A stretch of DNA of 64,000 nt from contig NZ_AUNE01000011.1 in the NCBI RefSeq assembly GCF_000447755.1, positions 62,001-126,000 on the forward strand, in the 5' to 3' direction. Source of the stretch: Bacteriovorax sp. BSW11_IV. GTDB lineage: Bacteria; Bdellovibrionota; Bacteriovoracia; Bacteriovoracales; Bacteriovoracaceae. A program made the translations under genes and the position numbers. Of this stretch, positions 56,544 through 57,992 are shown one piece after another (position 1 is the stretch's first letter; each line of letters starts with the position of its first letter). The notes under the pieces are model-generated. The model made no database searches. It was given only the letters and a program-made list of their open reading frames with translations, and had not been told where the DNA came from.

Positions 56544-57992
56544 ATGGACTTTGGACCACTATTTCGTAATGAAGAACTAGGACCTGATGACTATTTATAT
56601 GGCCGAAAAGGCCCGTGGCCACAGCCTTCCCCCGATCATCCTCACGGCGAGGCCTATGCCGTCATCCATCTGCCATTTGTTGAACAGTTGGATTGGTGGT
56701 TTCATGTGGGTCTTCGCTATGTCGTCTCTTTGGGGCTGACTCCTTGGATGTTTTTAAAAGCCTTTTTTATGGGTGGTCTAAAACCAGTGAGTGACCAAAA
56801 GTTTCATGAGATTTTAACCAACACGATGATGAGCAAGTTTATCACTCCAAAACTTGATGAAGAAGATTATGAAAACTTCAAAGAGCTTATGAAACAAGGA
56901 GAGAGTTATGTCATTACAGATTTACAAGCAGTGCGAACAGTAAAAGCTTATAAAGGTCTCTACGTTTGTCCAACTAAGACTCTCATGAGAGAAGTAGGTC
57001 ATGAAGAATATGAAGTCGTAGGGATTTATGTTTTTAAAACAAAGGCCCTCTTAACGCCAGAAGATGGGCAGGCGTGGGAGCTTGCAAAGTATTTTGTACT
57101 TCAAGGTGGAGCAATATGCGCGACTTTAGTTGTTCATCCCAACTTGCATTTTCCACTGGATTCAATAAATGCTATTACAAAAACGGCCCTACCAAAGAAA
57201 CATATTCTTTTCAAACTTCTAAAACCTCATTTACGGTTTACACTGATGTTGGAAAATGCCGTTCTCACATTCAAAACTTCTGTGATACGCAATAAAAAGT
57301 GGATGAGTTATGCTCCCTATCCTGGAGCATATGAAGGTCTTAGGGACTTACTTGTGGAGGGATTTAGAGGTATTCCAGGCAACGAGAGCTATCCACCTTA
57401 TCATTTTCCTCTAACGCCACCAAAAGTTTATGGGAAGTATGGAGATTTTCAAAATGCTTACTATGAAGTGATTTATTCCTTTGTGAAATCTGTTTTAAAA
57501 AATGTTAAAAGCGATGACGTTCACGTGTTGAATTGGGCAGATTACATTGCCCATCATGTGCCGGGATTTCCAAAAGGAAAGGACATTTTTAAAGGAGATA
57601 CTTTTTATCAATGTATCACAAGCTATATTTGGAGTGTGACTATTGGCCATTCCATTGATCATTACAATTATGCCCAACAATCAGTTCAAGAAATTCCCGT
57701 TCGACTGCGCCAGTCCCCACCAAAAAAAGGTGATGCTATGATCTCTCGCAAAAATCTTGTCACGACGATAGATCAGATGAAGTACTTAATGTGTATGAAA
57801 ATGTTTTTTGGCCCAACAAACGTAACAAGGCTTATTGATTGTGATTATGATTTCACTGGTGATCACAATAAAGAGTATAAAAAGATTGTGACCGAATTCA
57901 AATCGCAGCTTCTTGAGCTAGAAAAGAAATTAGACAGCAAAGGTCTAAAGTATATTCCGTTAAATGAAATTGCAGCGAGTATTCAATACTAA
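56544..57992 (+). CDS. Lipoxygenase-like protein with altered iron site
   Basis: 482 residues, compact, no signal peptide. Homology to lipoxygenase is visible in WELAKYFVLQ, KKHILFKLLKPHLRFTL and SYIWSVTIGHSIDHYNYAQ, followed by PVRLRQSPPKKG. Against soybean LOX-1, His504 aligns with H198, His690 with H369 and Asn694 with H373 (His as in mammalian 15-LOX). But His499 aligns with A193 and the C-terminal Ile839 with Tyr482. A nearby H202 might substitute. Iron binding and dioxygenase activity are therefore uncertain. GAGAG precedes the ATG. Confidence 0.75.
   Translation: MDFGPLFRNEELGPDDYLYGRKGPWPQPSPDHPHGEAYAVIHLPFVEQLDWWFHVGLRYVVSLGLTPWMFLKAFFMGGLKPVSDQKFHEILTNTMMSKFITPKLDEEDYENFKELMKQGESYVITDLQAVRTVKAYKGLYVCPTKTLMREVGHEEYEVVGIYVFKTKALLTPEDGQAWELAKYFVLQGGAICATLVVHPNLHFPLDSINAITKTALPKKHILFKLLKPHLRFTLMLENAVLTFKTSVIRNKKWMSYAPYPGAYEGLRDLLVEGFRGIPGNESYPPYHFPLTPPKVYGKYGDFQNAYYEVIYSFVKSVLKNVKSDDVHVLNWADYIAHHVPGFPKGKDIFKGDTFYQCITSYIWSVTIGHSIDHYNYAQQSVQEIPVRLRQSPPKKGDAMISRKNLVTTIDQMKYLMCMKMFFGPTNVTRLIDCDYDFTGDHNKEYKKIVTEFKSQLLELEKKLDSKGLKYIPLNEIAASIQY

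Follow-up and report, generated by a model that had tools for sequence, protein, structure and literature searches.

A lipoxygenase-fold gene and its neighbourhood

The window (the whole 64,000-nucleotide stretch of Bacteriovorax sp. BSW11_IV DNA analyzed here) carries an intact and conserved open reading frame of 482 codons plus stop, whose product resembles lipoxygenases (LOX; Table 1). The gene is flanked by rpmB and by a gene for a 2OG-Fe(II) oxygenase-like protein, both of which also adjoin the copy in a congener (G002), and an acyl-CoA transferase gene lies near it. The 2OG-Fe(II) oxygenase-like gene possibly encodes a second lipid or protein oxygenase. No signalling gene was found in this neighbourhood, nor any other conserved partner that would explain it. 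As the first-pass annotation had stated, the protein is short and has no obvious signal peptide by inspection; its size is unremarkable for a bacterial LOX without a beta-barrel.

Table 1. Features of the LOX-like locus (window positions) and of related loci (locus positions).
Feature	Position	Strand	Remarks
LOX-fold protein	56544..57992	+	Predicted minimal catalytic domain, without PLAT/C2 domain
A193 codon	57120..57122	+	Equivalent of the non-ligand first His (CspLOX2 H252); A/I/L/V/S/T/G/M/C in the family, never His
H198 codon	57135..57137	+	Predicted first metal ligand (CspLOX2 H257, soybean H499); 65/65
H202 codon	57147..57149	+	Predicted second metal ligand (CspLOX2 H262, soybean H504); H-x3-H; 65/65
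H369 codon	57648..57650	+	Predicted third metal ligand (CspLOX2 H449, soybean H690); 64/64
D372 codon	57657..57659	+	Just before the fourth ligand; Asp 63, Glu 1; V/A/I in canonical LOX
H373 codon	57660..57662	+	Fourth ligand position (CspLOX2 Asn453); 64/64
C-terminal S-I-Q-Y	57978..57989	+	Terminal carboxylate expected as fifth ligand; Tyr/Phe in 63/64 complete members
2OG-Fe(II) oxygenase-like protein, 159 aa	57993..58472	-	Convergent neighbour; same place in congeneric G002
Kinase-AAA16-GAF-cyclase giants	L053:11493-16637, L076:11568-16919, L083:11560-16857, L077:5602-10896		8-85 bp after the LOX-like gene

Homology to lipoxygenases was examined at several levels. The Pfam Lipoxygenase model (PF00305) matched residues 173-237 with E=4.5e-4 and 19.3 bits, below its gathering cut-off of 23.6. 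A phmmer search of the PDB returned CspLOX2 as the best match (E=2.9e-5), and profile searches of the PDB returned LOX entries exclusively. An AlphaFold2 model built on the family alignment reached a pLDDT of 91.5 and a pTM of 0.92, and when it was compared with the PDB using Foldseek, the best 50 matches were all LOX (best E 5.1e-15; TMq at most 0.73). Taken together, these searches uphold the lipoxygenase alignment reported in the first-pass annotation: the homology is real, yet remote, and the model predicts a LOX catalytic-domain fold for the 482-residue protein.

No ligand position is lost in the alignments

Three histidines of the classical LOX helix form the motif H-x4-H-x4-H, and the second and third of them are metal ligands; H-x4-H is the spacing of this first ligand pair in canonical plant and animal LOX and in most bacterial LOX. 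Published ligands are His257, His262, His449, Asn453 and Ile569 in CspLOX2 (PMC5437038); a second list gives His499, His504, His690, Asn694 and Ile839 (PMC6244800), where 499 and 504 are the soybean LOX positions. The phmmer alignment, which begins at CspLOX2 residue 225, places the ligands His257 and His262 opposite H198 and H202, and the non-ligand His252 opposite A193. Further downstream, H369, H373 and the carboxylate of Tyr482 are in register with His449, Asn453 and Ile569, and in a global profile-profile alignment H369 likewise falls opposite the canonical His, H373 opposite Asn and Tyr482 opposite Ile. The local profile-profile alignment against 31 canonical LOX gave Prob 99.6 and E 1.8e-24, a smaller canonical subset gave Prob 99.4, and a control against an unrelated family gave Prob 0.1. 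In addition, the spacing H202-x17-H220-x8-H229 is exactly that of soybean LOX (H504-x17-H522-x8-H531). The first-His position is also not His in certain other LOX-like ORFs (L117, L126, L089).

Because A193 pairs with a non-ligand histidine and H198 and H202 pair with published ligands, no ligand position is lost in these alignments and all five are kept. The first-pass annotation had correctly reported that H198, H369 and H373 remain and that the C-terminal Ile becomes Tyr482. Its statement that His499 becomes Ala193 was a register error, and H202, which it had offered as a replacement ligand, belongs with H198 to the canonical first-helix pair H499/H504. Its pseudoenzyme option is disfavoured as well. 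The unusual H-x3-H spacing and the non-Ile terminal residue could suggest that His499 was truly lost and H202 newly recruited, or that the protein is degenerate, but we regard these readings as highly improbable: the numbered alignments rule out A193 as a lost ligand, and conservation speaks against decay, the four histidines and the C-terminal motif being near-invariant across 65 distinct sequences.

Features that set the metal site apart

To describe the site we counted residues in a non-redundant set of 65 relatives that covers at least five phyla (64 for the downstream and C-terminal positions). H198 and H202 are invariant, so that the first ligand pair is H-x3-H in 65/65. HxxDH stands in place of the canonical HxxxN in 63 of the 64, and the same proportion end in [SATG][IVL][QN][YF], the last residue being Tyr or Phe and not Ile; the chain of every complete member stops at the position homologous to the LOX C-terminus. 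The substitutions that the first-pass annotation had proposed to look for in bacterial relatives, an aromatic end and a non-histidine residue at the A193 position, are shared across the family. The 31 canonical comparators have H-x4-H throughout, although they were chosen for the H-x4-H-x4-H motif; they mostly have HxxxN, and 23 of them end in Ile. A histidine at the fourth ligand position also occurs in 3/29 canonical myxobacterial LOX and in animal LOX. In the AlphaFold2 models, the ligand helix is unbroken from 181 to 221 in a canonical LOX (L103) and interrupted at 202 in the window protein (helices 172-201 and 203-215), a break that the deletion of one residue between the ligands would be expected to cause.

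The literature that we searched held no report of an aromatic LOX terminus. In a plant LOX, replacement of the C-terminal Ile by anything but Val is reported to be inactivating, according to work cited in PMC6244800. By analogy with this plant enzyme, the Tyr/Phe end could signify other chemistry or absent dioxygenation. The earlier description of a rewired iron site holds as far as it denotes an unusual LOX variant in its spacing, aromatic end and D372, and fails as far as it denotes a lost ligand.

A distinct and widespread family

Scanning genome contigs with the single sequence as query gave no matches, and an alignment-based scan of the GTDB set gave 54 loci of the LOX-like family. These lie in Bdellovibrionota, Bacteroidota, Myxococcota, Pseudomonadota, Cyanobacteriota and one actinobacterial MAG, with the caveat that MAG titles may err. 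Within the window's phylum the family was present in 32/369 genomes, mostly of the window's own family. A quick tree of 91 sequences separated the LOX-like family from canonical LOX by one branch (SH-aLRT 99). Nine of 24 diverse members matched Pfam at E<0.01, weakly (best 2.9e-8), and none of the 24 was matched by an NCBIfam model. Our search of openly available papers other than preprints found no description of the family. The first claim about the protein, that a ligand had been lost, is wrong; what it belongs to is a distinct, widespread and apparently uncharacterised bacterial branch of the lipoxygenase superfamily.

Two further lineages stood out. A very divergent relative, L137 (G428:C16:60911-61738), has HxxxH, AHAADH and a C-terminal SICF, and forms a long branch sister to the family. 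L090, L097 and L101 represent a different deep LOX-like branch; they have H-x4-H, end in R-I-[NT]-I and are apparently shortened ahead of the downstream motif's second conserved His.

Signalling genes adjoin many relatives

A link to signalling genes was unexpected and formed no part of the first-pass annotation. Nucleotide-cyclase, kinase-AAA-GAF, histidine-kinase or SpoIIE domains were found at 23/100 positions immediately adjacent (+/-1) to family members versus 10/469 positions further away, from +/-3 to +/-9 (P about 1e-11 in a Fisher test, with members counted as independent and relatedness uncorrected). The ORF filter missed two further adjacent cases, in Halomonas (L078) and Roseateles (L075). 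Pfam confirmed the domains of the partner proteins.

These partners are diverse in architecture. Giant proteins of about 1,700-1,800 residues, combining protein kinase, AAA16, GAF and nucleotide cyclase, are encoded just downstream in hosts that include Algoriphagus, Cocleimonas and Oceanibium; the four listed in Table 1 come from Bacteroidota, Gamma- and Alphaproteobacteria. Bacteriovorax (L046, about 900 bp off) and Saprospiraceae share this layout, with a histidine kinase as the output domain. A cyclase-AAA16-TPR gene adjoins the copies in Synechococcus and Hydrogenophaga; the partner at L074 is a 7TMR-DISM cyclase, and that at L054 is a SpoIIE protein. At seven Bacteriovoracia loci, the LOX-like gene adjoins a gene for a multi-TM histidine kinase of about 440 residues; the N-terminal domains of these kinases are homologous, and the two genes lie in an operon or in convergent or opposite orientation. 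In the window's family, the multi-TM sensor domain was found in 24/30 LOX-like-positive genomes versus 25 of about 98 negatives (group size approximate, 126-131), an association that is significant, not exclusive and uncorrected for phylogeny. Multi-TM histidine kinases also occur in genomes without a LOX-like gene (76 vs 32 genomes), and many family members are without a signalling neighbour. In genus g52 of family f3, whose genomes showed no LOX-like gene, ORFs of about 215-230 residues consist of the membrane sensor domain alone, free of a kinase (e.g. G138:C1:818073-818585, G134:C10:10839-11342).

The genome that holds the window has a second family copy (G000:C27:57399-58760; L002, L150), 34% identical, which is divergent from a CHASE5 histidine kinase gene. 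It also encodes, on another contig, one kinase with the LOX-associated multi-TM domain (G000:C10:1979-3292, L200; E 4e-60); this kinase gene shares a one-base overlap with a gene for 446 residues (L200:642-1979). Furthermore, four FA_desaturase homologues are present, which makes an unsaturated lipid substrate plausible.

Proposed function and its alternatives

Since relatives adjoin cyclase, kinase, histidine-kinase or SpoIIE genes, we propose a signalling role, and we lean, with moderate confidence, towards a metal-dependent LOX-type oxygenase of an unsaturated lipid whose product or protein state feeds a signal. From homology, a single non-haem metal, probably Fe and possibly Mn, would be held by four histidines (H198, H202, H369 and H373) and by the carboxylate of the terminal Tyr482. 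An M(III)-OH would then abstract hydrogen from an unsaturated lipid, followed by addition of O2, as in the LOX mechanism. The helix break, the shorter spacing, Asp372 and the aromatic end should leave the metal site and the pocket tuned differently from those of canonical LOX. The oxygenated product, or a lipid- or redox-dependent state of the protein, would most likely feed an intracellular or cell-cell signal, and we infer that such a role may carry over to the window copy.

A rather unlikely alternative is that the protein is a LOX-fold metal-binding sensor of lipid, hydroperoxide or O2 that contacts the adjacent kinase or cyclase and is not an oxygenase. Signalling partners with very different output domains would suit a sensor, as would the aromatic end in view of the inactivating substitutions reported in a plant LOX. 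However, the complete ligand set is conserved, as it is in catalytic LOX, fusions of a sensor to the enzyme were not noticed, and the partners' multi-TM and GAF domains could bind a small product instead. We are similarly doubtful that the family comprises ordinary lipid-peroxidising LOX variants, serving lipid catabolism, prey-lipid processing or defence, beside which the signalling genes are incidental. The acyl-CoA transferase gene near the window copy, the four desaturases, and one Bacteriovoracaceae clade with aldehyde dehydrogenase- and thiolase-like neighbours (named by sequence inspection) point in that direction, but the signalling genes concentrate at adjacent positions, across unrelated gene types and phyla.

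The preferred reading, an oxygenase that feeds a signal, can be extended only tentatively to a new class of bacterial lipid-signalling modules, in which, across at least three phyla, an altered-site LOX-fold metalloenzyme might make an oxylipin-like signal whose reader is encoded beside it: a cyclase, a kinase-AAA-GAF protein, or a multi-TM histidine kinase/SpoIIE protein. Published hypotheses that LOX products serve bacteria as signals of their own are based on species associations (see the review PMC11011848). Direct pairs of a LOX-like gene and an adjacent cyclase or kinase gene make this question testable, and some of their hosts, Algoriphagus lacus and Halomonas among them, have names and can probably be cultured. 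In addition, a natural LOX-fold site that has neither the common ligand spacing nor a terminal Ile is useful for probing the roles of those features.

Comparison with known systems

With canonical bacterial LOX (CspLOX2 5MED, E. salina 8X8F, P. aeruginosa 4G32 and myxobacterial enzymes) the protein shares the predicted catalytic-domain fold, the His triad, the fourth ligand position and the C-terminal carboxylate expected as fifth ligand in register, the WxxAK...H helix, the x17 and x8 His spacing and an S-I-x-x C-terminus, although identity is 15-17% in the Foldseek alignment. The LOX-like family differs in having H-x3-H and not H-x4-H, HxxDH and not HxxxN, and Tyr/Phe and not Ile; it also lacks the first motif His, forms a separate clade and has linked signalling genes. 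A viral structure search returned distant giant-virus LOX-like proteins only, namely LOX-fold proteins of Yasminevirus and a mimivirus (BFVD A0A5K0U892, A0A0G2Y6S6). These contrast with a 2026 paper, which states that no LOX had been detected among viruses (PMC12993299).

Three other systems share single traits with the family. In P. aeruginosa, oxylipin-dependent quorum sensing (ODS) likewise uses oxygenated fatty acids as bacterial signals (PMC9524268), but through DOX-type oxygenases and without a LOX-fold enzyme encoded next to a cyclase or kinase, so that the analogy is functional only. The fungal Mn-lipoxygenases have, by description, the LOX fold and a non-Ile terminal metal ligand (PMC13059375); their terminal residue is Val, not aromatic. 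Myxococcus fulvus MF-LOX1 is an active 12S-LOX whose first ligand pair is reported as His372/His376 (PMC6612559). By the published description it differs in size (676 aa) and in its second pair, His549/Asn553, and shares the H-x3-H first pair; because this pair is reported in an active enzyme, the H-x3-H spacing is not unprecedented.
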